From a virus: a stretch of 41,118 nucleotides of DNA. The translations under genes were made by a program, and so were the position numbers. The notes under the pieces are model-generated. The model was not told the origin of the DNA and ran no database searches. It saw only the letters and a program-made list of their open reading frames with translations. Shown here piece by piece: positions 1,000 to 33,267 of the stretch (the first letter of the stretch is position 1; the number at the start of each line of letters is the position of its first letter). The stretch spans positions 1 to 41,118 of the IMG/VR virus record IMGVR_UViG_3300027896_000094; one strand, given 5' to 3'.

Positions 1000-1203
1000 T
1001 TACCCTGTGATGAGTGTGCAAAAGTCCCGGACACCAGCGATCTGGCCCTGGACAAACCTGAAGTCGCCGGGGTCTTTCACGCCCTCCAGCGTCTCGTGAT
1101 ACTCCTCGATCAGAACATCCCTGTAGTCTGAAATTACCTCAGTGGATGACTGTAACAACATGCCGAACCGTTGCATTTTTTCTTCGCGTGTGCGGTTGCT
1201 CAC
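1000..1203 (-). CDS. Small hypothetical protein between portal and scaffold
   Basis: A 67-residue, mostly helical charged protein (MSNRTREEKMQRFG start) with no recognised domain. Its ATG overlaps the portal stop codon by 4 bp (ATGA), which implies translational coupling, and the scaffold-like gene starts 15 bases after its stop. Position suggests a head-assembly accessory role, but nothing in the sequence proves it. Confidence 0.7.
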   Translation of the reverse strand: MSNRTREEKMQRFGMLLQSSTEVISDYRDVLIEEYHETLEGVKDPGDFRFVQGQIAGVRDFCTLITG

Positions 1204-3593
1204 TGGCTAGCTCCTGTGGGACCGGGGAGTCCTGCGCCGCCGACGTCTGCCGGGTTGGTCGCGGACCCAGGTGGGATTGAGGACGAGTAGCGCTCAGGGT
1301 GCTCGACAAGCGATTCAGCCTTGGGCGTACCTAGGGACTTAACGCCGAGGGGCAGGGGCGCCATGACAACCCCGCCAGGGGTTGCTTGGGGGGCTGACTG
1401 TGGGGGAATGGCCCCGGGCTGCCCGGGACGCCATGTAGGCCCACTGGGGGCGTTGGGTGCGGCCTGGCCAGGCTGCTGTTGAACCCCGGCGTCGGGGACA
1501 TCTTGGCCGGAGCCGTCTGGGTTGACGTCCTTCTTCATGGCGGCGACGTCCGTAGCGGACTCGAACTGCCGGTGAGCGGTCAGAGTCTCCTCTCGCATGA
1601 TGTTCAGGGCTGCAGCTGTAGCCGGTTTGCCATCCACCATCTGGAGCTCTTCCATGGCCGCTTCGAGTACCACAGGGTAGGCCGCGGAACCCTTGTCGGT
1701 TTCGGACAAGACCTTCAACTTCGCGTCGCGGAGCGGAATCTCGGGCTTCATCTGGGGCTGTTCCTGGGCCTTCGCATCTGCCTGGGCCTTCGCCTTCTTG
1801 GCGGCATCCGCATCGTTGAGGAAGATGTTCTCGCCAGTGAGGGAGAACGCGTCTTCGAAGATCTCGCCGATACGCTTGTCGTTGAAGCGAGCCTGCCAGT
1901 AGCTGTTGTTGCCCACGGCCTTCATCATCTCCAAGATGCTGTTGACCCGAGCCATCTTCGCCACGAGCCCTTGCAGCGCACTGGAAGAAACCACGTAGTC
2001 GGCGTCGATCTCATCGCTGAACTCGTAGGTCAAATAGAAGTCAGCCATCTTCTCCATGGCGGGGATGATGAAGTTCTGCTCGATGTTGCTGACCACGGTC
2101 TTGAACGGGTTGGTGGCGTTGTTCCACTGCAACTCGGCGCCCCCAAGTGTACGGTTGTGCGTACCGGTGGAGTTGTTACCCATGAGGAAATCCGGCACGC
2201 CAGTCTCCTCTTGAGCCCACGCGCGCGCGGCCCCCTGGCGCTCGAGACATTCCTTCAGGATGTTGGGTGGATAGAAGATGTCCACCGGCTTCTGGGTCCC
2301 GCCCACGGCATTGTTGACGGGCCACATCTTGCCGGGATGGGGCTTGCACATCTCGATACCGAGCTTCACGCGGCTCATGTCCACCACGGTCTGCGGCCTG
2401 GCGATGCTGGCCATCGTGTCATTCGCGGCGCGCTCGCACGCGGACCCAGCAGCCTGGGACGAGAACATCAGCTCGGGAACGCCAGAGCCCCAGATCGAGT
2501 GGATGTTCTTCCGGTATTGCGTGATGTAGAACGGCAGGCGATCCTGATGGAATTCGCTCACTGTGGCGCGGATCACCTGGCCATTGCAGACCATGATGTT
2601 CGCGGTGTGCATGGCGTTGGGGTCGTCCATGTTGATCTCGTCGGGGCTGACTCCATAGAGCTCAAGCTCCTTCGCGGTCTTGTGCATCCAGAAATCGTAA
2701 ACCACATACCGATGTCGGTAGGTGTACATCTGGTTGTTGTTGTTCGCGATGATGAGGTCCGTCTCCCAGGGCTCCGGGGTCCAGTTGCCGTCAGGGGCGT
2801 GCTCCATGACGTAGTCAATGCGGTTCTTCATGAACCCACCGACGTCACGCATGCTGCTCAGCCACGCCTTGTTGGTGACTCTCCGGCGGCAGACATAGAG
2901 GCAGTCTGGCACACTGCGCGCACCGGGATCAGGATACACATCGAACATTGAAACGTGTTCCCACTCGGGGTAAATGTAGGCCTTCCTCTTCTTGCCCTTG
3001 CCGCGGTGTTTGTGCATCCGCTCCTTGGGGAACGGGCCGAAGAAGCACATGCCGCCGAAGGCCACGTCGTCGTAGATGCCCGCCAGCAGCTTGTCTCTGA
3101 GCTTCGATTCAGCAACGCCATCGCAGATCTTGGAGTTCAGGTTGCGGCACCGGCGTTGGGACTCGAGGAAGATCTGGTTCTTAAAGGTCGCGTAGTCAGC
3201 ATCGATGCCCTGCTGCGCGTTCTGTTGCGCCAGGAACTCTGTGAATTCAGGCATGAACGGCTCAGGGCTGGTGTCAACCTCCCAGATGTCCTTGCCCTGT
3301 GGCAGCAGAACATCAGAGATGATCGCAAACGCGGTCTGAACCTTGGGGCTCGTCATGTTCACGAACGCGGATGACCAGCCATCCTGAAGCGTGGTTTCTG
3401 GGCCGTACATGCTGCGAAGGTTTCGGTAGGCGCGCATCCAGATGGTGTCCTGGTTGCGCCGCGCGAAACGTGCCGTAAGAAACAAATTAAGTAGCGTTCC
3501 GGCTGCTGAGCCAGGCTCAACGCCTTGCATGATCAGAGTTTCGTCCTTGGTGTCCGTCTCATTCGTAGCGGTGACGTCTGGTTCAGTAGCCAT
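1200..3593 (-). CDS. Portal (head-tail connector) protein
   Basis: A 797-residue protein, in the size class of podovirus/P22-like portals, which form the dodecameric ring at the packaging vertex through which DNA enters and leaves. The N-terminal region (around residues 25-100) has the helical RNQDTIWMRAYRNLRSMYG pattern and the central region has the mixed alpha/beta composition usual for portals. The last ~130 residues are Pro/Gly/Gln-rich and probably disordered. It follows TerL directly, which supports the call. The ATG at 3593 is preferred over an in-frame GTG at 3599 because GGAG lies 5 bases upstream of the ATG. Family assignment rests on size, position and general resemblance, not an alignment. 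Confidence 0.82.
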   Translation of the reverse strand: MATEPDVTATNETDTKDETLIMQGVEPGSAAGTLLNLFLTARFARRNQDTIWMRAYRNLRSMYGPETTLQDGWSSAFVNMTSPKVQTAFAIISDVLLPQGKDIWEVDTSPEPFMPEFTEFLAQQNAQQGIDADYATFKNQIFLESQRRCRNLNSKICDGVAESKLRDKLLAGIYDDVAFGGMCFFGPFPKERMHKHRGKGKKRKAYIYPEWEHVSMFDVYPDPGARSVPDCLYVCRRRVTNKAWLSSMRDVGGFMKNRIDYVMEHAPDGNWTPEPWETDLIIANNNNQMYTYRHRYVVYDFWMHKTAKELELYGVSPDEINMDDPNAMHTANIMVCNGQVIRATVSEFHQDRLPFYITQYRKNIHSIWGSGVPELMFSSQAAGSACERAANDTMASIARPQTVVDMSRVKLGIEMCKPHPGKMWPVNNAVGGTQKPVDIFYPPNILKECLERQGAARAWAQEETGVPDFLMGNNSTGTHNRTLGGAELQWNNATNPFKTVVSNIEQNFIIPAMEKMADFYLTYEFSDEIDADYVVSSSALQGLVAKMARVNSILEMMKAVGNNSYWQARFNDKRIGEIFEDAFSLTGENIFLNDADAAKKAKAQADAKAQEQPQMKPEIPLRDAKLKVLSETDKGSAAYPVVLEAAMEELQMVDGKPATAAALNIMREETLTAHRQFESATDVAAMKKDVNPDGSGQDVPDAGVQQQPGQAAPNAPSGPTWRPGQPGAIPPQSAPQATPGGVVMAPLPLGVKSLGTPKAESLVEHPERYSSSIPPGSATNPADVGGAGLPGPTGASQ

Positions 3594-3601
3594 GCGCACT
3601 C

Positions 3602-5044
3602 CTAATAGCCAGTGATCGGATCAATGGGATTCCACGCATCGTCTACATCGTAGGTCTCGTCAATGAACCTCGCCCTCATGCCACGCAATCGCGCCAGGTG
3701 GAGTGATGTTACCATATAGCGCAATGCGTCGCAAAGATCATCCTTCTTCTTGATGATTTTGCCAGTCTTTTCGTCGTAGCGATACATCTTCAGCTCTGCC
3801 AGTAACTTAGGACAGCTCTCGCTGATGTAGATGCGACCCTCGTCGAAGCGCTGGTAAGTTCTGGCGATGCCAGACATAACGCTTCCGGCAGTGTTGTCCG
3901 CCAGCTGCACGCGACGCGACGCCTCCGGAATCTGGTCCCAGTCTGGACCATCGAACTCGAACTCATACATCCCGTAGAGCGTGGTTCCGTCATTCTTGTT
4001 GGTCTGCAGCGAGGCTGTGTCCATGACGATCATGTAGTCGCCCCACCGCTTGATGGCGGACGCGTGGGTTGCTGGCGGCTTGGCCTCCATGCAGTGCTCG
4101 TCGTAGATGTAGAGGATGTCCGTGTCGTCGTCGTAGGCGCCAACCAGTGCTGCGGTGGGGTGAGTCCAGCCTACGTCCATGGCGATCAGGCGACGGTAGT
4201 GATCGCGAATCTTGAACAGGCGCCCAGAGTAGTCGTCCGGCGGGAACGGGTAGATCTGGCCCCTGCCCACTGTCGGGATGCCCGTGCTCCGAGCCTGCAG
4301 CTCGGACGGGTTGTCCTTGTAGATTTCCAGCATGATGCGGATCGACTCCTCGCTGAGGTGCGGGGCGTCTTCTCGATTCCATCCGGCGTGGACCCTCTCC
4401 ACGATTTCGTCGGACTGGTCCATGAGCCAGTTGTAGACCTCGGACATGCCCTTCAGGGCCGTGAAGCCAATGCACAGCTGCCCGCCAGTCTTGGCCGTTC
4501 TCGCAACAAGTTCCTTCAGAACCTCCATCGGCGGTTCCTCGTCGATGATTACCAGGTCAACAGTGGATCCCTGTAGGCGCTCTCGGCCCTGTTCGGCTGT
4601 CTTGAGGCAGATCTGGGCGGTTCCCAGGGGGTGCTTGACGAAGATCGTGTCCACGGCGCCAGGGACATTGGCACGCTTGGTGATCTTGATGATGTCCTCG
4701 GGCGGGATCATGCCCCCACGGGGGTCATCGGCATTGGGGCCAATGAGCTTGGTCTGAATGGAGTCTCGGACTTCCTCTGACGTCAATCCGACAACGAATA
4801 TGACGGGAGCCCTGTCGGTAATCTTGATTCCGGTGTAGAACTCCGGGTAGATGCACCGAGCCGTCATGGACGCCTTGGCCGCAATGGTCATGCTCTTGCC
4901 GACCTGGTTCCCACACAGGGCCAGGACGATCTTCTTCTTGGAGTTCAGCCACTTCAGCTGCCAGTGGTAGGGTTGGAACTTCTCGAAGGCGCGGCTCGCC
5001 TCACGTCGTAGATGCTCTTTGAGAAGTGCGTCAATAGATGCCAT
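3602..5044 (-). CDS. terL: Terminase large subunit (packaging ATPase-nuclease)
   Basis: A 480-residue DNA-packaging motor that hydrolyses ATP to translocate DNA through the portal and cuts the concatemer. The N-terminal ATPase shows Walker A GNQVGKS (45-51) and Walker B DLVIIDEE with the catalytic Glu (163-170). The C-terminal RNase H-like nuclease shows AMDVGWTHPTA (Asp290), a second acidic strand IVMDTAS (Asp342) and a third acidic motif KKDDLCDALRYM near residue 445. Length and order are complete. The start has GGGGAA about 7 bases upstream. Portal begins 9 bases after its stop. The probable small subunit is not adjacent but lies about 8 kb away on the same strand. Confidence 0.95.
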   Translation of the reverse strand: MASIDALLKEHLRREASRAFEKFQPYHWQLKWLNSKKKIVLALCGNQVGKSMTIAAKASMTARCIYPEFYTGIKITDRAPVIFVVGLTSEEVRDSIQTKLIGPNADDPRGGMIPPEDIIKITKRANVPGAVDTIFVKHPLGTAQICLKTAEQGRERLQGSTVDLVIIDEEPPMEVLKELVARTAKTGGQLCIGFTALKGMSEVYNWLMDQSDEIVERVHAGWNREDAPHLSEESIRIMLEIYKDNPSELQARSTGIPTVGRGQIYPFPPDDYSGRLFKIRDHYRRLIAMDVGWTHPTAALVGAYDDDTDILYIYDEHCMEAKPPATHASAIKRWGDYMIVMDTASLQTNKNDGTTLYGMYEFEFDGPDWDQIPEASRRVQLADNTAGSVMSGIARTYQRFDEGRIYISESCPKLLAELKMYRYDEKTGKIIKKKDDLCDALRYMVTSLHLARLRGMRARFIDETYDVDDAWNPIDPITGY

Positions 5045-5734: not shown

Positions 5735-6229
5735 TCATTTCTCCCCCAGGAGCTCGTCATACAACCCGAGGTAGCCAGCGGCATCTACAACGTTGTCGCG
5801 ATTCTTCTTGTTTGCCTGTCGCGCCAGCTTGCCCAGAACCATGATCATGGCCAGCTCGTCGGCCGTGACGTCGATTCCAACTGCATCACACAGCTTGGCC
5901 CAGCGCCCGAAGTTGTCGTGGACGTTCCCATACGCCTTGGCGCGGTCGCCGTGGATGAGGCCGTCAGCATGGAGCAGGAGGGGCACGTGCGCATCAGGTG
6001 GCGGAATCTCCCTTGGCTTGGAGTCGTCGACAATGCACAAAAGGCCATTGCAGCGCAAAGTCGCATTGTCGACAGGGGTCGCAAAGAATCTGGTCCCATC
6101 GACCAGCGTCACACGCTCGTTGAAGGTTTTTTTGTCGGGCTCCACACTGAGAATGTCTGGATCCGACCTCTTGAACTCGAGCTCCCGGTCGGCCATAAGC
6201 AACGTCGTGAGCCTGCAGTGCTTGGTCAT
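5735..6229 (-). CDS. DUF6378-like protein
   Basis: A 164-residue protein. The C-terminal half (about 88-160) has the pattern DGLIHGDRAKAYGNVHDNFG, then LAMIMVLGKLARQANKKNRDN and VVDAAGYLGLYDELL. This matches from memory the phage/prophage DUF6378 family, a small all-helical domain of unknown function with conserved acidic residues. The N-terminal part (about 1-80) is beta-rich and not recognised. Its ATG overlaps the stop of the upstream HD phosphohydrolase gene by 4 bp, so the two are probably co-translated and may both act on nucleotides. The molecular role is unknown. Confidence 0.6.
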   Translation of the reverse strand: MTKHCRLTTLLMADRELEFKRSDPDILSVEPDKKTFNERVTLVDGTRFFATPVDNATLRCNGLLCIVDDSKPREIPPPDAHVPLLLHADGLIHGDRAKAYGNVHDNFGRWAKLCDAVGIDVTADELAMIMVLGKLARQANKKNRDNVVDAAGYLGLYDELLGEK

Positions 6230-6801
6230 ATTGCGCTCCTGTAGCGGTAGATGGCGTGTCCGCGGTCGTCGTTCGGAAACTTGACGGGAATGCCGGTGAG
6301 GTGGGTGTAGCGCGCGTAGAACCTATTACGAACGCTGTGGAAGGACTCTTCGTTCTCGATCGTCCAGTGCCCGAACGGCTGCTCAGCAGCCCACAGGGGG
6401 TTGCCCATGATCTGCCGGGCCTCAGTGCAGCACATCTCCCAGTCGTAGGGCTTGACCTCCTTCATGAGCCCGATGTCGAGGACGAAGTGCTCGAAGACCA
6501 CTGCGTGGATGCGGTCCTCCAGGGCGCACAAGTCGGGGAACGCCTGCTTCACTGGGGCCACGATGTCACCAATGTAGGCCTCGGACGCGTCATGCAGGAG
6601 GGCCACGAGCGCCAGTCTCCGGGGCACCACGTAGCTCAGCGCCAGGCTGTGCTGTGCAACAGAGTAGGGGATGCGGGAGTGGCCATTGAATCGCAGATTG
6701 TGGCTCAGCGCCCAACCGATATCGAAGATGTCGATGTCATCGGGCTTCAGGTTGTACAGGTCAAGCATCTTGTTGCCATACATTCCGATGTATAATCCCA
6801 T
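6226..6801 (-). CDS. HD-domain phosphohydrolase, YfbR-like 5'-nucleotidase
   Basis: A 191-residue metal-dependent HD-superfamily protein. Visible ligands are the first His in YSVAQHSLALS and the HD pair in ALLHDASEAYIGD, followed by PVKQAFPDL, a layout shared with the deoxynucleoside 5'-monophosphatase YfbR. The likely role is dephosphorylation of deoxynucleotides, tuning precursor pools during infection. The ATG at 6801 is chosen because AAGGAG lies 8 bases upstream; longer frames lack a site. It is divergent from the methyltransferase-like gene, whose start is only about 25 bases away, so the two promoters must overlap the neighbouring coding sequences. Confidence 0.8.
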   Translation of the reverse strand: MGLYIGMYGNKMLDLYNLKPDDIDIFDIGWALSHNLRFNGHSRIPYSVAQHSLALSYVVPRRLALVALLHDASEAYIGDIVAPVKQAFPDLCALEDRIHAVVFEHFVLDIGLMKEVKPYDWEMCCTEARQIMGNPLWAAEQPFGHWTIENEESFHSVRNRFYARYTHLTGIPVKFPNDDRGHAIYRYRSAI

Positions 6802-6826
6802 CTGTCTGTCTCCTTTGGGGGTGCCT

Positions 6827-7417
6827 ATGCTGTTTGTCGGCGATCTGTCCATACAAGATGCTGCGGTGCTCGAAGATCTGGGCAGCCGGGCTACATCAAT
6901 CCTTGAGTTCGGGGTCGGAGGCTCGACTCAGATCCTTTGTGGGGCCGCGCCACACGACGCCACCCTGGCCTCGGTGGACACCGACCCAGAATGGATCGTA
7001 CGCACAGCGAAGAACCTGGACCTTCTTGGGCTCCCGAGGGACCGGCACTGCTTCGTGAACTACCAGACCTGGGTCGAGGAACTCCGTGGGCGCGTATTCG
7101 ACCTCGTGTTCGTAGACGGGGTTGGACAGTATCGCGTCCCCTTCGCACGTGCGGCCTGGAGTCAGCTCGCCATCGGCGGGATCATCCTGTTTCACGACAC
7201 CAGACGCGAGCTGGACCTGAAGGACGTGTTTGGATTCATGCTCGAACGGTTTCATGAGGTCGCTGATCCTTTCATCAACACACACCATAGTAATCTCTCT
7301 GGCTTCCGGCGCAAGGCCCCAGAGCCGTACGAAAATTGGAATGTGACCGAAGGCAAACCGGACTGGGCCTATGGGTTGGTCCCGCCACCTGACAACTGGC
7401 CTTCACTTCTAACCTGA
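6827..7417 (+). CDS. Class I SAM-dependent methyltransferase-like protein
   Basis: A 196-residue Rossmann-like protein. Motif I is SILEFGVGGSTQIL (about 24-37), motif II is ASVDTDPEW with the acidic residue that binds the SAM ribose, and a strand FDLVFVDGVG (about 90-99) matches the post-motif region. A HDT segment follows (LFHDTRRELD). No sequence-specific DNA recognition domain or N6A/C5 signature (DPPY or PCQ) is present, so a small-molecule, glycan or protein methyltransferase is more likely than a DNA modification enzyme. The start is either ATG 6827 or GTG 6821, both behind a G-rich stretch. It is on the plus strand between minus-strand operons, as for an acquired accessory gene. Confidence 0.7.
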   Translation: MLFVGDLSIQDAAVLEDLGSRATSILEFGVGGSTQILCGAAPHDATLASVDTDPEWIVRTAKNLDLLGLPRDRHCFVNYQTWVEELRGRVFDLVFVDGVGQYRVPFARAAWSQLAIGGIILFHDTRRELDLKDVFGFMLERFHEVADPFINTHHSNLSGFRRKAPEPYENWNVTEGKPDWAYGLVPPPDNWPSLLT

Positions 7418-8002: not shown

Positions 8003-10000
8003 CTACCGCTTTCTGGACCTCAGGAATGTCAAGTATTCTGCCCCCGCCTCGGCGTCCCAGAAGACCTGGATGCGGTTGATCAGGTCGGCGCTGGGGTCAA
8101 TAACCGTTACAACACAAGGACTTATGTGCTGATCTCGGAACCCCTTGTCGCGCGCGAAGCGATCGTAAATTTTATAGCTGCCGATTTGTAAACAATGGCT
8201 AATTCTGCCGTCATCCGGGGACTTGACCACGCCATAGCCGCATGTGTGCTTGTGCCCACAGATGAAGATATCATCCCTGATGCCAAGCATTGAGGCCTTC
8301 ATGACCGGGTGAGCCACGTTCCACTGGCTGCTGCCCTTGAAGTCATGCCGGGCGTTGATGGTCGTGGCCGCGCCGCTGGGTGAGACCAGGTTCAGCCGGG
8401 CCTCGCTGGGCTCGTAGAGGGCGTTGATCTGGCTCGCGATCCACTCGAGGGGATCGTCGGCGCCAGACCAGCAATTGCCAGTGAAGTAGGCCGATCCGTT
8501 ATTGCGGATCATGAAATTACCGTGCGGAACCGTAAGACACCACACCTTGCCGGTATAGTTTACAGTCGTGGTTGCGCCCTTGGTTTCTGTTTGCAGATCC
8601 TGGCGTCGGACAAGATTCAGGCGCCAGTCATTATCGCGCGCCATCGACATCCGCGCGGACCACCCGTGGGAAACCGCGCAAGCCTGCACGGACCCGAGAA
8701 ATTCACGCTCGCCATGCAGAACACCGCATGTCTTTTCTTGTGGGTTCGCACCGTCCCATGTCCCATCCCCGGCGATTAGCGCGCCTAACAGCACATCGAA
8801 CTGCCGATCCGTTAACTCTTTACTCCAGAACGGCAGCTCGCCCTTCTTGGGTACCCACGACAGCACCTTGCGGCTCCCTGTGGCGTTCAGGCGCCATTCC
8901 GCCTGTGGGAGTGGGGACTTGACGAGATCACGGCCGCAGACACTCTTGATGTCTCGAACGCGCGTAGTGACCGTGTGCTCAATCTGCAAGTCCTGCAACA
9001 GCCTCGTGATTTCGTTACCATCCTTGCTCTGGTAGATCGAAATGCGAGGCGAGTTGCCTTGCCAGCTGATGGACCCCTCAGTCAGGATCCAGCCGGCCAG
9101 GGTGATCTGGTCGTCAGACAGCGTGCAGCCGTAGGTTGACCCAGGGGCCGACACCGGGATGGCCACGCGAGACGGCAGCTTGCCAGCCTGCACGAACTCA
9201 TACTTACCCCACCTCTTCAGCCAATTGCGCTTCTTGGCAAGCACGCGGTGGTTTGGAGTTACCTCCATGGTAATGGACTGGGTCTTCATGCACACCAGTT
9301 CGCCATCGTGGTCGCGCTCAATCCTCCCAAGGATGGGGGACCAGACAGACTTGCCAGTCTCTCGATCGATCGAAAGGACCTGATCATCGTCTCTGATGTC
9401 CTGATAATTAACCCACCCGCGAGCTGTAAGACACTCAGACGATGGAGTTAGGCAGTCATGATTCCCACCGATAAGGTAGATCCACTTGCCCTTCAGTTCC
9501 CGGAGGAACCAGTTGGCAAGGATGAGCGCTTCCTTCGCACTAACCCCTTGTTCTCCATAAAGACGAGAAAGACGACCCACCCAATTATTGCGCGTATCGC
9601 CAATGTTCGCAGCGAACAGCCCCGGTGTGTCCTTGACGGTCTTGATGTCGTGCTTGAGTTTCCTGAGGTCGGTGCCATCGTCGTCGACATGGGGGTCTCC
9701 AAAATGCAGGATGCCGTAGGGTCCGGTGATGGGGACGTCCACGTTGATCAGCTGGCGAGCAACCTCGTAGCTGCGCTTGCGTTCGAACTTCCGCATGCGG
9801 TATTCGATGATCTCTTCGGCCGTCAGCTCGGGGCTGGGGGGCAGTGTGGGCTCGACGGGGTCGGTGAACCCATCGCCAAGCTGGCATGCCTTCCAATCGT
9901 TGTCCCAGCTGTCGGGGGTCGCAACAAGCCCTGCGGCTTTGCGTTGACGACCCCTGGCCTTCTTCCAATTCCTCCAGGCAGCGCCGGTGGGTTTGCTCAC
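8003..10000 (-). CDS. Calcineurin-like metallophosphoesterase interrupted by an intein
   Basis: A 665-residue precursor of which 338 residues are extein. The extein has metallophosphoesterase motifs in order: GDPHVDD (DPH at 102-104), NIGDTRNN (Asp about 135), GGNHD (178-182, split from its continuation by the intein), and FICGHKHTCG near the C-terminus. Such enzymes use two metal ions to hydrolyse phosphodiesters or phosphomonoesters; phage members include nucleases and phosphatases, and the substrate is not predictable here. The real start is the GTG at 10000, which overlaps the stop of the preceding gene (GTGA); the longer open frame upstream only shadows that gene. Excision of residues 183-509 would restore GGNHDCWSG. 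Confidence 0.88.
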   Translation of the reverse strand: MSKPTGAAWRNWKKARGRQRKAAGLVATPDSWDNDWKACQLGDGFTDPVEPTLPPSPELTAEEIIEYRMRKFERKRSYEVARQLINVDVPITGPYGILHFGDPHVDDDGTDLRKLKHDIKTVKDTPGLFAANIGDTRNNWVGRLSRLYGEQGVSAKEALILANWFLRELKGKWIYLIGGNHDCLTPSSECLTARGWVNYQDIRDDDQVLSIDRETGKSVWSPILGRIERDHDGELVCMKTQSITMEVTPNHRVLAKKRNWLKRWGKYEFVQAGKLPSRVAIPVSAPGSTYGCTLSDDQITLAGWILTEGSISWQGNSPRISIYQSKDGNEITRLLQDLQIEHTVTTRVRDIKSVCGRDLVKSPLPQAEWRLNATGSRKVLSWVPKKGELPFWSKELTDRQFDVLLGALIAGDGTWDGANPQEKTCGVLHGEREFLGSVQACAVSHGWSARMSMARDNDWRLNLVRRQDLQTETKGATTTVNYTGKVWCLTVPHGNFMIRNNGSAYFTGNCWSGADDPLEWIASQINALYEPSEARLNLVSPSGAATTINARHDFKGSSQWNVAHPVMKASMLGIRDDIFICGHKHTCGYGVVKSPDDGRISHCLQIGSYKIYDRFARDKGFRDQHISPCVVTVIDPSADLINRIQVFWDAEAGAEYLTFLRSRKR
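8474..9454 (-). mobile_element. Full-length intein with LAGLIDADG homing endonuclease
   Basis: A 327-residue in-frame intein. The N-terminal splicing block starts at Cys (CLTPSSECLTARGW, then DDDQVLSID) and block B is VTPNHRVLAKKR. The endonuclease carries two dodecapeptide motifs, LAGWILTEGSI and LLGALIAGDGTW, each with an acidic residue. The C-terminal blocks are KVWCLTVPHGNF and GSAYFTGN, followed by Cys+1 of the extein. The terminal Asn is present, but the usual penultimate His is Gly, a variation known in some inteins. Cys1, the block B His, the terminal Asn and Cys+1 are all present, so splicing is likely. The insertion falls inside the metal-binding GNHD motif of the host enzyme. Confidence 0.92.
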
Positions 10001-20086: not shown

Positions 20087-21717
20087 TGTGCGCGGCGTGT
20101 GGCGTAGAGGATTCAGTAGCTAGGATGAAACGCTATTGGGATCATAGGGATGGAAGCATTTTTTATGTATGCCTCGCATGCGATAACAACCTGGATCTGT
20201 GGGAGACTGACGACCTCAACCTCAGAGCCCTGCAAAGCCGTGAGACCCCGAGGGTGGAAGCCGTAAACGGCGAGGATATGGACGAAGACCGCAGTACCTT
20301 CGACATCTTCAATGGCGACGGACCGGAATGTAGGTCTGTTTATCATTGCGGTTGCTGCGATGAGACATGCTTTGGCGACCACGTGCGCGTCGTAGATCTG
20401 GTTTATCCCGTGTGTCTTCGGTGTGTGAGAGAGTCCTACCACCACAGCGCGCTGCTTGACCAGTATTTCATCACCCCAGCGGCACGGGCGGCCAGAGAGG
20501 CGGAGCAGCGCGCCTGGCAGAGAGCACCAGTGGTGCCCGCCGCGCCACCCAGCACGAGCGAATCCCCCAGTGGCTACACGGCCACGAAGGGGAGAGCTTC
20601 CGCCCGATTCCTGGACTATCCATACGTGGGGATCGAGTTCGAGCACGCGCCCGTTCAAAACAAAGCCATGGCGTGCAACTCCGGGTCACTGTTCCGCTGG
20701 ATCGCCAACGGCCTGCAGTCACCCGAGAAATCATGGGACCACTTCTTCATGTGCCACAGCGATGGCAGTATTGAAAGCCGAGCCGAGTATAGCTCCTCAG
20801 AGATCGTGTCTACGCCGACCTCTGGAGATCTTCTCGACGCGGTGATCAACCGATTCTACGAGCCTTTCGCAACCAAGATATTTACCCCCGGCCCAGAGAA
20901 TCGAAAGTGTGGGTTTCACATGCATGTCGAGAGCCGTTACCTCATGTGGATGAAGGCAGGGCATGAGGACAGGGATGCGAAGTCAAGGTCGGTCGCCACG
21001 GAGGCACTGGGGTTGATCTATGTTATCTGTCGAGAGTTTATATCCTCTAGCAGGAGAGAGAATCACTTCTGCCGGACGAAGCCCGCGGTGAGGAGCAAGT
21101 CAACTAGCCTCGCCGGGAGCACAGCCATGATCAACGTCTTCGGACACAGTGATTACCCCGCTATCGCTGTCCGCACGATGGGCACGCTGGAATATCGGCT
21201 GTGGCCATCGAGCAACAGCATCCGTAACACCAGGGCTCGCGCAGAGCTCAGCCAAAAGCTGACGGCGCGTTTTGATAGCTGTGTGATGCACGCGAAAACC
21301 CCAGCACCCGAACTACACCCAGAGTGTCTCGAGGGCCTGCGAGCCATCGCTAAACTCTGTGTCGGTGGCGCGCGCCTCGGGATTCCCGATGCGCTGGGTG
21401 AGCTGCTCGGCCTGTCCGACACGACCGTCAGAGATCTGAAGAGCATCCTTGAGCGATACAATCCTTTCACCCACGGGGCGACTCACTTCCAGTTCACGAA
21501 GGAGCAGCTCTCTCACCTCAAAAGCGAATCTACCTTGCACAGCACGGCGATCAAGATCCCAGGCAAGATGCCTATCTCCGAACTTGGCGACACCACCGCG
21601 CAATCGGATCTTATGGAGCCATGGCTGACCTTCGGCGAGTGCGTCAAGTGCTATCCAGCCGCAACCGAAGGCGCGATGCCAGACCTGGTCGCAAGCCTGG
21701 CCACAGGAGGTGATTAA
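20083..21717 (+). CDS. Amidoligase-like (COOH-NH2 ligase) protein with N-terminal zinc modules
   Basis: A 544-residue protein. Residues 1-40 and 83-115 carry Cys pairs (CAAC, CLAC, HCGCCDETC, CLRC) that should form two zinc sites. The core (about 178-400) has the amidoligase signature in order: YVGIEFEHAP (183-187), HSDGSIESRAE (225-235), SSEIVSTPTS (238-246), CGFHMHVES (276-284) and a final GTLEYRLWPSSNS (367-379). This matches the PF12224-type amidoligase family, distant relatives of glutamine synthetase/GCS that use ATP to join a carboxylate to an amine. The invariant Glu, Asp, His and Arg positions appear retained, so it may be active. The next gene is a class II glutamine amidotransferase, joined as TAATG. 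The substrate is unknown. GGGGAGG precedes the ATG. Confidence 0.78.
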   Translation: MMCAACGVEDSVARMKRYWDHRDGSIFYVCLACDNNLDLWETDDLNLRALQSRETPRVEAVNGEDMDEDRSTFDIFNGDGPECRSVYHCGCCDETCFGDHVRVVDLVYPVCLRCVRESYHHSALLDQYFITPAARAAREAEQRAWQRAPVVPAAPPSTSESPSGYTATKGRASARFLDYPYVGIEFEHAPVQNKAMACNSGSLFRWIANGLQSPEKSWDHFFMCHSDGSIESRAEYSSSEIVSTPTSGDLLDAVINRFYEPFATKIFTPGPENRKCGFHMHVESRYLMWMKAGHEDRDAKSRSVATEALGLIYVICREFISSSRRENHFCRTKPAVRSKSTSLAGSTAMINVFGHSDYPAIAVRTMGTLEYRLWPSSNSIRNTRARAELSQKLTARFDSCVMHAKTPAPELHPECLEGLRAIAKLCVGGARLGIPDALGELLGLSDTTVRDLKSILERYNPFTHGATHFQFTKEQLSHLKSESTLHSTAIKIPGKMPISELGDTTAQSDLMEPWLTFGECVKCYPAATEGAMPDLVASLATGGD

Positions 21718-23279
21718 TGTGCGGACTGTCGGGGATCGTCATCACCCAGCCCAAGCTCATTCCCATGGAGCTCGTGAAGACCATTTTCTCACTGCTGATG
21801 GAAGAGAATGATGACCGAGGCGGCCATTCGTGGGGCGCCTGGGGATCCAGGAAGGCTCCGATTCGGGGCCTGGGAAAGTACAGCACGAACAGAGCCCCGC
21901 TGCATGCGTGGTTGAAAGACTTCCGCTTCATGGAGGGAGGGCCGACGTTTCTGTTTGGCCACACCCGCTTTGGAACCCACGGTGGCAGGACGATCGAGAA
22001 CTCCCATCCATTCGAGGAGGGCAACATCACCCTGGCCCACAATGGGGTCGTCGAGGTCGAAGGTTACACTACCGAGGATCACGCCGTGGATTCAGCCAGG
22101 ATCGCCATCGCTCTCACGCAGAAGGGCTATGTGGGCGGGATGGCGTGCGTCATGGGCATGTGCTCGTTGCTCCTGAGCGTGGACGGCCAGCCTCTGGTCT
22201 ATCGCCACGACCAGGTCCTCAACTACGCGCAGTTCCCATGGGGGTCCGCCATCTCCAGCACGTTCTGTGACCTGGAGCTGACTGTGGTCAAGCGCCTGGG
22301 ACTCGAGCCAGTAGGGGGCGTCCAGAACGTCCCAGAGAACACCTTCTGCCAACCTGGCTTCGGCCTCATCAATGTGTCGGCGCCGGGCAAGGAGCGTCCG
22401 AAGTATGTCCCGCCTGAGCCCAAGAAGAGGACCTGGTATGGCGGCCTTGCGGTTGATGAAGACGACGATCGATTCTCGGGGAACAGACACGACATGCGAT
22501 ACGACGAGGACAACGGGGGCATGTGGAAGCCTGGCCATGTCTGGAGCATTAAGCGTGGCCGCTATGTGCCGCAAGAAGAAGCAGATAGCGCCACTATTCT
22601 CAACGGATGGAACACTCGCAGCTGGAACAGAGAGAAGCAGTGCTGGGAGTATCCCGAAATCGTGGCGGGAACCCAGACCGCACTCGGCCTGGTCACCATC
22701 GACAAGACGGCCGCGTCTGGTGGCAGCCAGGAATTTAGTGGCAAGTCCGATCTCCCTAAGGCCAAGGAAATCAAGTCAGTGCGAGCCATTCGGGCGGAGA
22801 TCAAGGCTAAGGTTAAGGCTGAAGCCAAGGCAAGGAAGGCTCGGATCGCATCAGCGAAAGCCGAGGCTGAGTCCATCATCAAGAGGTCCCAGGACAGGCT
22901 TGCGGCAGCTCAAAGGGCTGCAGCGCTCGACACCGAGGACGACGAGCCGATGTTCGAATGCACAGGCTGCGGCTACCCGTGCGCGATTGAAGACATATCC
23001 GTCTGCGTCACTAACTGGTCATCAGGCCTGGAGGTGCCGCTGTGTCTCGATTGCATCACAGATGAGATCGTCAAACAGGGCGAGATCGTGGTTCTCAGGC
23101 CGTTCAATGCGCCGACAGTGACCGCAATGGATGACTTCGGCAATGCCCTTGACGTTCTCGAGGCAGAGATCGTCGAGGCGGATCCAGATATCCCGCCCTT
23201 GGACACGTTGACCGACAAGGCTAAGGAGGAGCTGGAGGAGTACATCACGAAAAACTATGGGGAGCCACGCCATGTATAG
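21717..23279 (+). CDS. Class II glutamine amidotransferase with coiled coil and zinc ribbon
   Basis: A 520-residue protein beginning MCGLSGIV: after Met removal Cys2 is the N-terminal nucleophile of class II (Ntn) glutaminases. Supporting motifs are GHTRFGTHGG (81-90), NSHPFE (95-100) and LAHNGVV (106-112), the glutamine-binding set seen in GlmS, PurF and GATase_6 enzymes. No synthetase, PRTase or isomerase domain follows. Instead the middle (about 330-400) is a Lys/Ala/Glu-rich helical stretch and the C-terminus carries a CTGCG/CLDC zinc ribbon (about 413-445). It should release ammonia from glutamine for a partner, and the adjacent amidoligase-like protein is the obvious candidate. AGGAGG precedes the start. 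It is too divergent in its second half to be a housekeeping amidotransferase. Confidence 0.85.
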   Translation: MCGLSGIVITQPKLIPMELVKTIFSLLMEENDDRGGHSWGAWGSRKAPIRGLGKYSTNRAPLHAWLKDFRFMEGGPTFLFGHTRFGTHGGRTIENSHPFEEGNITLAHNGVVEVEGYTTEDHAVDSARIAIALTQKGYVGGMACVMGMCSLLLSVDGQPLVYRHDQVLNYAQFPWGSAISSTFCDLELTVVKRLGLEPVGGVQNVPENTFCQPGFGLINVSAPGKERPKYVPPEPKKRTWYGGLAVDEDDDRFSGNRHDMRYDEDNGGMWKPGHVWSIKRGRYVPQEEADSATILNGWNTRSWNREKQCWEYPEIVAGTQTALGLVTIDKTAASGGSQEFSGKSDLPKAKEIKSVRAIRAEIKAKVKAEAKARKARIASAKAEAESIIKRSQDRLAAAQRAAALDTEDDEPMFECTGCGYPCAIEDISVCVTNWSSGLEVPLCLDCITDEIVKQGEIVVLRPFNAPTVTAMDDFGNALDVLEAEIVEADPDIPPLDTLTDKAKEELEEYITKNYGEPRHV

Positions 23280-27757: not shown

Positions 27758-29053
27758 ATGTTATCTCTAGCGATGATCATCAAGAACGAAGAGCACAATC
27801 TCCATCGCTGCCTGAGCTCCGTGCGGAGCCTGGTGGACGAGATGGTGATCGTGGACACTGGATCAACCGACGACAGCATGGGCATGGCCAGGTCGCTGGA
27901 CGCGCATGTGCATCAGTTCGAATGGTGCGACGACTATTCCGCGGCCAGGAACTTCGCACTTAGCAAGTGCGTCGGGGACTGGATTCTGATCCTCGATGGT
28001 GACGAGGCGCTGTATCCGGAAGACCACGAGTTGATCCGAGCCTGCATGGCGGACGATCGTTATGACATCTACACCCACCCGTTGCGCCATTTCTACCACG
28101 ACGGCAGGGCTGTTGCGCTCGATGAGCCGGTGGTCCGGTGCACCAGTGGCGAGTACCCCTACTGCTCCGACGCCACCAACCGGCGCCTCGTAAGGAACCT
28201 GCCCGGCCTGCACTGGACCGGGCGCCTCCACGAGATGATCTCCCTGCGCGCTGGCGACCACGACCTGCGCATGGGCGAGGCCAAATTCTTTGTCTACCAC
28301 TACGGCCGGCTCGACCGGGAGAACGAGGAGCGCAAGCGTGGGTTCTACCTGGACATCGCCATGAAGGAATACAGGGAGGACCCCAAGAATCCGAAGGCGC
28401 TGTTCAACTTCCTGACGCAGGCCAGGGCTGCCGAAGCCTGGGACAAGATGCTCGAGGCCTCGGAGATTTACCTGGGGCTGGGCGGCCTGGTCCCAGCGAT
28501 CGTGGCCACCATGGTCGGCGAGGCCATGCACCACGCGGGGCGCTACGACGCGGCCCTGCAATGCTTCAGGCTCGTGCTGCTCAAGACGCCAGGCAATGTG
28601 TTCGCCCTTAACCGTGTGGCTATTACGCTTATCAAGCTGGGGAGGATCAACGAGGCACGTCGGTTCCTGTATGAATCCATCATCAAGGAGCCGGCCTTCA
28701 CCTGTTCGCACTTGGTGTGGGCGGAGATGGAGGACGGTATCGGCGACAGGCCGATGGCGATCGAGATCTTGAAGCAGGGCATCACGGATAACCCAACTGA
28801 CACCAAGCTGGCCGAAGCGCTGGCTAAATTAGAGGAGGGAGAAAGACATGGGCGGATACAAGGAGCTCTACGAAGTGGAGCACACGAAGCTGATTGCACT
28901 GAGACGGGATCTCCTGGCCCTTCAGCACACGGAGACCAAGCTGATCGAGTTCATCAAGCTGGCATCGGAAGTTCTGAAGTCGGAGCTGATGGAACGGGAT
29001 CTCCAGTGGGCGACCAGGGATGCACTAGACAAGATAGAGAGCTTCCTGCATGA
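27758..29053 (+). CDS. Family 2 (GT-A) glycosyltransferase with TPR-like C-terminus
   Basis: A 431-codon frame. The GT2 domain starts MLSLAMIIKNEEHNLHRCL with VDTGSTDDS (32-40) for nucleotide-sugar binding and LDGDEAL (79-85) as the DxD-type metal site. Residues about 215-350 are helical repeats (GLVPAIVATMVGEAMHHAG; PGNVFALNRVAITLIKLG) like TPRs. This bacterial-type glycosyltransferase could modify host surface glycans or a phage protein. The last ~65 codons overlap a complete small gene (28848) in another frame and look low-complexity, so the functional protein may end near residue 365. GGAGG lies upstream of the ATG. Confidence 0.8.
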   Translation: MLSLAMIIKNEEHNLHRCLSSVRSLVDEMVIVDTGSTDDSMGMARSLDAHVHQFEWCDDYSAARNFALSKCVGDWILILDGDEALYPEDHELIRACMADDRYDIYTHPLRHFYHDGRAVALDEPVVRCTSGEYPYCSDATNRRLVRNLPGLHWTGRLHEMISLRAGDHDLRMGEAKFFVYHYGRLDRENEERKRGFYLDIAMKEYREDPKNPKALFNFLTQARAAEAWDKMLEASEIYLGLGGLVPAIVATMVGEAMHHAGRYDAALQCFRLVLLKTPGNVFALNRVAITLIKLGRINEARRFLYESIIKEPAFTCSHLVWAEMEDGIGDRPMAIEILKQGITDNPTDTKLAEALAKLEEGERHGRIQGALRSGAHEADCTETGSPGPSAHGDQADRVHQAGIGSSEVGADGTGSPVGDQGCTRQDRELPA

Positions 29054-30474: not shown

Positions 30475-30695
30475 GATTCGATCCCGAGTCTGCCCGTGGC
30501 TACATGGACGCGATTGAATACCTCCGCTCTTGCCCCGATGGTATGCGCATCCTACGGGAAAACATGCACGCAGATGGGTTGGCCATGATCAATCGGGCCA
30601 ATGTTCTGTGGGAACAGTGCATCGTGTTGCGCGTGACGTGCAACAGTATGGTTTCAGGCAACGGTCTTCCATGGAACGAGGGCGGTGTCCGGTGA
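30471..30695 (+). CDS. Small hypothetical protein, 74 residues
   Basis: A helical protein (ESARGYMDAIEYLRSCPDG; HADGLAMINRANVLWEQCI) starting at GTG 30471, which overlaps the preceding stop by 4 bp; GGAGGG is just upstream. Its own stop overlaps the PrimPol start. Unknown function. Confidence 0.6.
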   Translation: MRFDPESARGYMDAIEYLRSCPDGMRILRENMHADGLAMINRANVLWEQCIVLRVTCNSMVSGNGLPWNEGGVR

Positions 30696-31498
30696 CCCCT
30701 GCCGACCTCGTCGAACTCGGACTGAAGCTGTTCCCCATCACCGGGGGTAAGCGTCCGGCTTTCGCGGGATGGCAGCGGTATGCCTGCAACAACACCCTAG
30801 CCGACTTGCGCAACGACTGGCGCAAGGGCTTCAGGGCTTTCGGGATCTACCTGCGGCCGTCCCGGCTCGTCGTGTTCGACTGCGACAACCAGGCGGCCAC
30901 GGCCTGGGCGGAAGAGAACCTCCCCCACACCCCGATGATGACGCTGACCAAAAGGGGACTCCACAGGTTCTACCGTCTGCCGGAGGATGCCCCCACACCG
31001 AAGGACAACCGGCCCGTAGCTGGCGTGGCGATGGACCGGAAGGCCAAGGGCTACGTGGTGGCCCCGGGCAGCGTCTTGGGGGGCTATGTTTACAAAGCGT
31101 CGGCGTTTTGGGACACGCCCATCGACGAGCTTCCTGTTTACCCGGTGGACAAGCTGCCCCCGGAACGGGAACCTCTGTCGTGCCGGGTCATCATCCCGGA
31201 CATGGAGCAGACGGAGCTTGGGTCCACGATTGGGGAGTGGTTCATCGAGAACTCCGAAGACAGCATCTCTGGAGAGAATGGGTCGCGCCAGCTCAAGCGG
31301 GCTGCGAGCTTCTTCGTAAACGGGCTTGGGCTTAGCCTTATCGCTTCGGAAGCGTGGCTGTCAGAGTGGAACCATCGCCGCGCCCAGCCGCCATGGGGCG
31401 ACAAGGAGCTTGGACATGCGATAGAGACGAGCATCCGTGAGGGTGCAATCACCGGTCGCCCTCGCGGATGGGCCTACACTGATTGGGCACGATCATGA
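30692..31498 (+). CDS. Primase-polymerase (PrimPol) N-terminal domain protein
   Basis: A 268-residue protein in the bifunctional primase/polymerase (PF09250-type) family. Conserved elements are LKLFPITGGKRPAF (12-25), LVVFDCDNQ (59-67, the metal-binding D-x-D), LTKRGLHRFY (85-94, nucleotide-binding His) and GYVVAPGS. A C-terminal helical PriCT-like region (about 185-265, PPWGDKELGHAIETSI) follows. The enzyme makes primers and possibly DNA for the helicase encoded next. Start is GTG 30692, overlapping the previous stop; the longer frame is a shadow. Confidence 0.85.
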   Translation: MTPADLVELGLKLFPITGGKRPAFAGWQRYACNNTLADLRNDWRKGFRAFGIYLRPSRLVVFDCDNQAATAWAEENLPHTPMMTLTKRGLHRFYRLPEDAPTPKDNRPVAGVAMDRKAKGYVVAPGSVLGGYVYKASAFWDTPIDELPVYPVDKLPPEREPLSCRVIIPDMEQTELGSTIGEWFIENSEDSISGENGSRQLKRAASFFVNGLGLSLIASEAWLSEWNHRRAQPPWGDKELGHAIETSIREGAITGRPRGWAYTDWARS

Positions 31499-33267
31499 AA
31501 ATGGACGCAGCAACAGCACAGAGAACACTCGGCATCATCATCCAGCAGGAGTTTGGCAGGACCCTGGAGGATACAGACAAGGGGCCAGTCGTTATCTGGG
31601 GCGCGTGCCTGCTGCCTATTGGGTGCTTCGACAAGCACGGCGAGAAGGGGTTCGTGGTGGATGCGATAACAGCCACCAGGCCAGACACCCTTCGCCGCGG
31701 GCTTATGCTCATGACGTCAGACACCAGCGGTGCGCGCTTCCCAACGTGGTGCATACAGAACGGCCTGCCCCCTCCAGACTCAAAGAATGTCCGCAAGATC
31801 AGCGGAGCCCTGGTTGTAGACCCGGCATCCGAGGAGCCGGTCATCTACGTAGACGGGGTGGGTGAGGTGGAGCATGGCGTATGGGCTCTCGCCAATGGCG
31901 TCATGGTCAACGGAGAGTTCGTTCCGATGGAGCGTGGCACACACTGTAGAACCAGCATGGGCACGCGGGTCGTCTTCGCTCCGTCCCTCGCCTGCGAAGA
32001 GACGTGTGGATCGGCTCCTCTCGACGGCAATGACCAGGTTAGAATATCCGAATGGGCAGAAGACGTAGTCAGGTTGTTCAATTCTCCCGCGCCCCTGGTT
32101 TGCGCCGCGTGGGTCAGGGCTTCTGTCTTGCGTTCCAGGATGGAGAGTAAGGATGCCCAGCTTCCCGCCCTCTACATCTGCGGTGACAGCCACCGTGGCA
32201 AAACTCTCATGGCCACCATCCTCCAGCGTATGCTGGGCAATAGGGGTGAGAGTCCACACGCCAACATGACGTCGGCCTCCAACGTGGGGATCTTCCTGGC
32301 GGCGGCGTCAAGGTCGTCACTTCCCTTCGTGATCGACGAGGTCAAGCCGTATTCAGGGATGGGCGACAACGATCTTGTGAAGTCACTGGTGAACGGAGAG
32401 ACCCCGATCAAGTCCACACGCAGTGGCAAGCTGCGCTCGGCCATCAAGATCAAGTCCATGCCAATTCTGGTGTCTGAGTTCGTTCCGGCGGACACTGGCA
32501 GCATCACCAACCGGCTGTTCACCATGAATCTGGTTGGGCTCTCTGCCCACTTCAAGAAAGAGGATGTCTCGAACTGGGTGTGGTGCGCAGACCGGAACCA
32601 CGCACTCTACGATCACTGGTCCCACTCCATCTACCGTGACGCTAGCGTGATGACCGACGAGCACTTCACGGAGCTGTGGGACTCAGCCAGGCGGGACGCC
32701 TCTGTCATCTGTGACGAGACGTGCATGACCCTCAACCGAAGCGTAACCGCCACCACCATTGCGCTTATCGGATTCAAGTTGCTGAACAGGGATGCAGGAG
32801 GCAGGCTGGACAGTCTCTACCTGGACTTCTGTGAGTCACTGGCCATCTGCCTGCGTAGCATGAGTCGGATCATCATGGAAGTGAGCCCCATCGGGCGCTA
32901 CATCTCGGCACTCCGCAGCGGGTGGGCATCCCTGGAGGGACGCTACTCTAAACTGGTGTGTGACCGGGTGTTTACCTATTCCGAAGATCATGGCCTTATC
33001 GTGGACCATGTAACGCTTCACGGAATACTGATCGACTCACGAAGGTTGGATCCCACGCTCATTGGGAACCTGTCGACAGTGGCCATGGGACTTGAGGCCG
33101 AGGGATTCACCAAGATCACCACCGCGGGACGCATGCGAGGTAGACACCACATGGCATTTTCAAGGCTCTCGAAACAGGTCTGGATGCACGACTTGTCCAG
33201 GCTCCTAACCGTAATGGACTGCTCGTGCGCGAAGATGATTGCGCACCTTTCCGAAACAGAGGAGTGA
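31495..33267 (+). CDS. Superfamily 3-type replicative helicase
   Basis: A 590-residue ATPase. Walker A is CGDSHRGKT (about 229-237) and Walker B is LPFVIDEVKP (about 276-285), followed by a sensor-like SMPILVSEF segment. The spacing and the GDSHRGKT form fit the DUF927/SF3-like helicases that accompany PrimPol in phages and plasmids. The N-terminal ~190 residues are a beta-rich accessory region and the last ~200 helical. The ATG overlaps the PrimPol stop (ATGA), so the two are co-translated. I see no DNA polymerase gene in the window, so the helicase may work with PrimPol or the host polymerase. Confidence 0.82.
   Translation: MKMDAATAQRTLGIIIQQEFGRTLEDTDKGPVVIWGACLLPIGCFDKHGEKGFVVDAITATRPDTLRRGLMLMTSDTSGARFPTWCIQNGLPPPDSKNVRKISGALVVDPASEEPVIYVDGVGEVEHGVWALANGVMVNGEFVPMERGTHCRTSMGTRVVFAPSLACEETCGSAPLDGNDQVRISEWAEDVVRLFNSPAPLVCAAWVRASVLRSRMESKDAQLPALYICGDSHRGKTLMATILQRMLGNRGESPHANMTSASNVGIFLAAASRSSLPFVIDEVKPYSGMGDNDLVKSLVNGETPIKSTRSGKLRSAIKIKSMPILVSEFVPADTGSITNRLFTMNLVGLSAHFKKEDVSNWVWCADRNHALYDHWSHSIYRDASVMTDEHFTELWDSARRDASVICDETCMTLNRSVTATTIALIGFKLLNRDAGGRLDSLYLDFCESLAICLRSMSRIIMEVSPIGRYISALRSGWASLEGRYSKLVCDRVFTYSEDHGLIVDHVTLHGILIDSRRLDPTLIGNLSTVAMGLEAEGFTKITTAGRMRGRHHMAFSRLSKQVWMHDLSRLLTVMDCSCAKMIAHLSETEE

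Follow-up and report, generated by a model that had tools for sequence, protein, structure and literature searches.

Cluster A1 mycobacteriophages carry an intein in their Bxb1 gp47-type recombination directionality factor (RDF), a metallophosphoesterase, known from gp51 of phage Bethlehem, from Mryolo and from many others, which is 317 amino acids long, sits directly after a GNHD motif and is followed by Ser as the +1 residue. The Bethlehem gp51 intein, which has Gly at its penultimate position, splices completely in E. coli, whereas the exchange G316H slows the reaction and causes precursor to accumulate (Kelley et al. 2016, PMC5050341). In our data set this protein is represented by L105, equated with Bethlehem gp51 by its length of 317 residues and by R157 and G316, which match the published numbering. 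Further described phage inteins reside in DNA methylase (ShiLan/Hannaconda), portal (Belphegor) and TerL (GMA3) genes, and for the inteins of TliVMA, PI-PfuI and PI-SceI solved structures reveal a Hint splicing domain combined with a LAGLIDADG endonuclease fold.

The window analysed here is a stretch of 41,118 nucleotides from an uncultivated virus (IMG/VR record IMGVR_UViG_3300027896_000094), in which a minus-strand gene encodes a phosphoesterase interrupted by an insert of 327 amino acids with Cys as +1 residue. On alignment, this insert belongs to a phage lineage that includes the RDF intein, with which it shares the site after GNHD, Cys1, block F with VWCL.VP, the penultimate Gly and the LAGLIDADG domain at 31 % identity over the full length, whereas the exteins of the two host proteins are just 18.5 % identical. 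The methylase, portal and TerL inteins share with it the signature VWC...R..G...TGN, the penultimate Gly and Cys at F:4, but differ in host gene and site and are only 23–27 % identical; for the three solved structures, the likeness lies in the domain composition predicted for the window intein, at about 10 % sequence identity. This kind of intein is thus already known from mycobacterium phages, and the window copy is a further example. With high confidence we assign it to the mobile class 1 inteins that bear a LAGLIDADG homing endonuclease; its place is the NHD motif of a calcineurin-like metallophosphoesterase from a phage, and its lineage is that of the RDF intein. The features of the locus, with the evidence for each, are as follows.

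8003–10000, minus strand: precursor gene, intein-containing calcineurin-like metallophosphoesterase of 665 aa (open frame; stop codon at 8003–8005)
9455–10000, minus strand: N-extein with the phosphoesterase motifs GDPH, GDTRN and GGNHD (phrog_7339, E 9e-42; PF00149, E 2e-4)
9455–9469, minus strand: GGNHD metal-binding/catalytic motif, directly followed by the intein (GNHD invariant in 24 aligned homologues)
8474–9454, minus strand: intein of 327 aa, Cys1 to Asn327, with class 1 residues and a LAGLIDADG endonuclease domain (open frame, alignment, predicted fold)
9413–9454, minus strand: splicing block A (CLTPSSECLTARGW) with the nucleophile Cys1 (invariant, aligned with 12 relatives)
9248–9259, minus strand: splicing block B, TPNH, with Thr B:7 = T66 and His B:10 = H69 (H69 invariant, T66 nearly so)
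9074–9100, minus strand: LAGLIDADG motif 1, LAGWILTEG (aligns with GWILTDG of relatives)
8762–8788, minus strand: LAGLIDADG motif 2, LGALIAGDG (D230 and G231 nearly invariant)
8507–8548, minus strand: splicing block F (KVWCLTVPHGNFMI) with VWC, F:4 = Cys306 (invariant in the alignment with 12 relatives)
8474–8497, minus strand: splicing block G, GSAYFTGN, with penultimate Gly326 and Asn327 (both invariant)
8471–8473, minus strand: +1 codon TGC (Cys), with which the C-extein begins (the closest empty homologues have GCG, Ala, here)
8006–8473, minus strand: C-extein with the phosphoesterase motifs ARHD and GHKH (conserved columns, identity to homologues)

Translation probably starts at the GTG at position 10000, giving the precursor of 665 aa, as a Shine–Dalgarno-like AAGAAGGG lies upstream and the N-termini of the closest homologues, VRPTG or MKRPTG, match the (M)SKPTG of the window protein at the same place. 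The exteins contain the DxH, GDxxN, GNHD, H and GHxH motifs of calcineurin-like metallophosphoesterases (PF00149, phrog_7339) in the form of GDPH, GDTRN, GNHD, ARHD and GHKH, all five being intact and invariant or nearly so in an alignment of 24 rows, and the C-extein is 51 % identical to a homologue from Pseudomonas phage IME307. These motifs mark the host protein of this uncultivated phage as a calcineurin-like metallophosphoesterase, with a predicted metal-dependent hydrolase activity. We also considered whether it is an RDF of the Bxb1 gp47 type and rejected this, given the extein identity to the RDF stated above and the lack of an integrase: neither a resolvase nor a serine or tyrosine integrase was found in the 41-kb record, which is possibly a fragment.

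The insert is read in a single minus-strand open frame, GGNHD/CLTPSSECLTARGW ... VWCLTVPHGNFMIRNNGSAYFTGN/CWSG (slashes mark the splice junctions), and since intein-free homologues run uninterrupted through GGNHD/xWSG, it represents a precise in-frame insertion. An intein of 327 residues at 8474–9454 in the GNHD motif of a metallophosphoesterase, with both LAGLIDADG motifs and the splicing blocks visible, had been proposed in an earlier note on this DNA; open frame, alignment and fold bear this out to the base, and motifs and blocks all align with those of relatives. Modelled alone by AlphaFold2, the insert reaches a mean pLDDT of 91.9, and the best PDB matches of this model in Foldseek are endonuclease-containing inteins (TliVMA with E 3e-15, PI-PfuI and PI-SceI). 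Library profiles score weakly and below cut-off (TIGR01445, E 0.018; LAGLIDADG_3, E 0.031), which is no argument against an intein because the mycobacteriophage type scores low too; the Pfam Intein_splicing profile, which gave no match in the window's own record, misses this lineage. Our identification therefore draws on the alignment with relatives, the insertion site and the predicted fold.

Several residues point to class 1, namely Cys1, the C-terminal Asn327 followed by a +1 Cys, and the TxxH of block B (T66-P-N-H69), and they are joined by the Hint splicing fold of the predicted model. The penultimate position is occupied by Gly326 instead of His; a penultimate His is common in class 1 inteins but not obligatory, and its absence does not exclude class 1 because the splicing-proven RDF relative also has Gly. 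A block-F His can usually stand in for the penultimate one, and no conserved His was found in block F, His311 of the window intein being variable among the aligned relatives. Position F:4 holds Cys, which ranks second in frequency at this position (PMC4031507). Both LAGLIDADG motifs retain acidic residues. Homology strongly suggests class 1 splicing of the window intein as well as homing by its endonuclease.

For this intein we infer the following course of events. The 665-aa precursor would be made first, Cys1 would attack the Asp–Cys bond, the N-extein would be transferred to the +1 Cys, and Asn327 would cyclise with neither a penultimate nor a block-F His, so that GGNHD-CWSG is ligated and the metal site restored. 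The endonuclease would cut empty alleles around the conserved GGN-AAY-CAY-GAY, and repair would copy the intein together with the adjoining +1 codon. Before splicing the phosphoesterase is likely to be inactive, since the insert separates GDPH, GDTRN and GNHD in the N-extein from ARHD and GHKH in the C-extein; the AlphaFold2 model of the precursor (pLDDT 78.6, with low values at the two splice junctions) is too uncertain to indicate whether the metal site forms before splicing. Decay of the endonuclease is seen in two relatives, L091 with GNG in motif 2 and L139 with the whole domain lost, and as such members may be inactive, the activity of the window's endonuclease is not certain.

The 82 homologous loci surveyed, which lie on viral contigs, in one phage and on one plasmid, have an uninterrupted NHD site with the single exception of L011; the three closest exteins, L005, L006 and L007 with 82 %, 80 % and 72 % identity in the N-extein, are all empty. 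A single-sequence query with the window intein retrieved one distant locus, so that alignments were needed for the rest, and searches with intein alignments yielded eleven more NHD/NHG-site relatives on environmental phage contigs. Copies at the same site are carried by L086 (the contig of L011), L087, L088, L089, L090, L091, L133/L134, L138, L139 and L140/L141, with L150 at GNHG. The environmental inteins of L086–L091, L134, L138, L139 and L140 likewise read NHD/C...GN/C or S in metallophosphoesterases, and we found no description of them in the searchable literature; the hosts in L091, L139 and L140 are phosphoesterases much more distant than the window's. Where the full length could be measured, their identity to the window intein spans 34–57 % (L087 57 %, L086 56 %, L088 50 %, L134 48 %, L089 43 %, L090 41 %, L091 39–40 %, L138 34 %). 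The window intein thereby extends the tested RDF intein to a site-specific family across very different phage phosphoesterases. Scans of a collection of genome contigs with two intein alignments returned no relative, so that this collection provides no example in a prophage or host.

Some of these relatives deserve mention in their own right. L139 (2501–2977) harbours, again at NHD, a mini-intein of 159 residues from which the endonuclease has been lost while Cys1, GN and a +1 Ser remain; this makes it a candidate for compact splicing tools. The same-clade intein of L150 (2501–3454; +1 Ser) lies at GNHG, not GNHD, of a distant phosphoesterase that is unrecognised by Pfam, yet displays the motifs GDWQLG, GNHG and GHYH. 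A related intein in L159 (2501–3421) occupies another metal motif, GHTH, of a different phage metallophosphoesterase with an uninterrupted GNHD (GH/C...VTQN/TH, penultimate Gln), so that inteins have entered phage phosphoesterases at two different metal-binding motifs. L001 (3578–6919) contains a GDP-mannose dehydratase-like phage gene with apparently two inteins, ending in SGN/S and VHN/S, in one open frame.

In a tree of 23 inteins the thirteen NHD/NHG-site inteins fall into one supported set (96/93) that includes one additional gappy methylase mini-intein, and a single clade of the thirteen is not rejected (AU p 0.31); the RDF inteins grouped weakly with the others in a first tree (45/0) and more firmly with more rows. 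By this phylogeny the NHD/NHG-site inteins form essentially one clade. The host exteins of carriers, in contrast, are scattered among empty ones, a single clade being rejected (AU p 6e-87) and at least four changes being forced in a tree whose empty rows were picked for closeness to the window and are thus a biased sample; for cutting of empty alleles by the endonuclease this scatter is indirect evidence. Inteins are more alike than exteins in distant hosts (39 versus 26 % for L091, 31 versus 18.5 % for the RDF), and both identities are about equal in near ones. That the inteins form nearly one clade while carrier exteins are scattered and the nearest exteins are empty indicates repeated movement of the intein, repeated loss or both, which the trees do not separate.

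Occupied and empty alleles differ in the residue following the motif. After clustering at 90 %, the +1 residue of the 26 empty homologues is Ala in 11, Leu in 10, Cys and Gly in 2 each and Met in 1, versus Cys or Ser in all seven carriers (Fisher p 8e-6, to be read only as a guide as the rows are related). The RDF subfamily behaves alike, with GNHD/LRAREYL in the empty Bxb1 gp47 and SkiPole, GNHD/ERP in the empty Xena and CosmicSans, and GN/SRARDYL in carriers. According to the earlier note, intein-free homologues lacking GGNHDC at this position would speak against the intein; they do keep GGNHD, but this is seldom followed by Cys, the usual residues being Ala, Leu, Met and Gly, which is a property of the acceptor site and no evidence against an intein. 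Splicing needs a +1 nucleophile by established chemistry (PMC4031507), and Ala, Leu, Met or Gly at +1 cannot support it; an occupied allele therefore has to depart from the majority of empty alleles at this residue, and the contrast offers a simple testable case of an intein bringing its own splice-acceptor residue. Most simply, co-conversion may carry the +1 codon along with the intein; alternatively, only rare Cys or Ser alleles were invaded, and the two empty alleles reading CWSG (L008 and L043) are compatible with either course. Raised DNA identity beside the insertion, a trace of co-conversion, was not seen, the nearest empty alleles being already too diverged. A more far-reaching scheme, which we put forward tentatively and consider rather doubtful as a whole, has intein and +1 codon as one mobile unit homing repeatedly into Ala, Leu, Met and Gly alleles, with co-conversion importing Cys or Ser, the empty Cys alleles L008 and L043 as scars of lost inteins, and Asn cyclisation proceeding without a penultimate or block-F His, perhaps through Cys F:4 or a conserved block-F Arg.

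The earlier note had further suspected that the penultimate Gly may slow or condition splicing, and from this follows a reading in which the intein is kept because such splicing switches the phosphoesterase on. The position inside the metal-binding motif with conserved motifs divided between both exteins would suit it, as would the persistence of the endonuclease-free mini-intein L139 at the same site in another phage and the tuned splicing in phages discussed by Kelley et al. (PMC5050341). At this very site, however, the Gly form of the RDF intein splices completely and His is what slows it (PMC5050341). Gly-Asn moreover terminates all same-site copies and 32 of the 34 relatives inspected at many sites, including those in unrelated methylase, portal, terminase, polymerase, nucleotidyltransferase and reductase genes, the exceptions being L159 (Gln-Asn) and a poorly aligned plasmid match (Gly-Ser). 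The penultimate Gly is hence a lineage trait and no defect of the window copy, and since the closest homologues are intein-free, function does not depend on the intein. We regard a role of the intein as such a switch as improbable; control of the window enzyme's activity by splicing as such is plausible, but such a tie is common to nearly all active-site inteins and does not set the window's apart.

The missing penultimate and block-F His and the endonuclease decay in L091 and L139 might suggest that the insertion has degenerated and lost splicing, so that neither the phosphoesterase nor the endonuclease would work. Such decay is very improbable, as the frame is uninterrupted, every splicing nucleophile and the acidic residue of each LAGLIDADG motif are in place, and the extein motifs are intact and conserved. 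We give still less credence to a class 3 intein in which Cys F:4 would be the first nucleophile. Class 3 requires a WCT triplet without a position-1 nucleophile (PMC5050341, PMC4031507); Cys306 at F:4 and a Thr at G:5 supply two of the three residues, but B:12 is Val, not Trp, and Cys1 is present and invariant in relatives, so the window intein falls outside this class.

A profile search revealed no further intein of this lineage in the window, and tRNA and Rfam searches gave no matches. On the same strand as the intein gene, a YfbR-like/dNMP phosphatase gene and a DUF6378 gene lie at 5735–6852, and beyond these follow a terminase (3602–5044) and an SU10-type portal (1200–3599), with Roseobacter phages (about 25 % identity) among the known phages nearest to this portal. 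The plus strand encodes a glutamine amidotransferase/GFAT-like protein (21717–23279), a glycosyltransferase-like protein (27758–29053) and, in adjoining genes at 30530–33267, a Prim-Pol domain protein (PF09250) and a DUF927/primase-helicase-like protein, a pair that likely constitutes a replication module.
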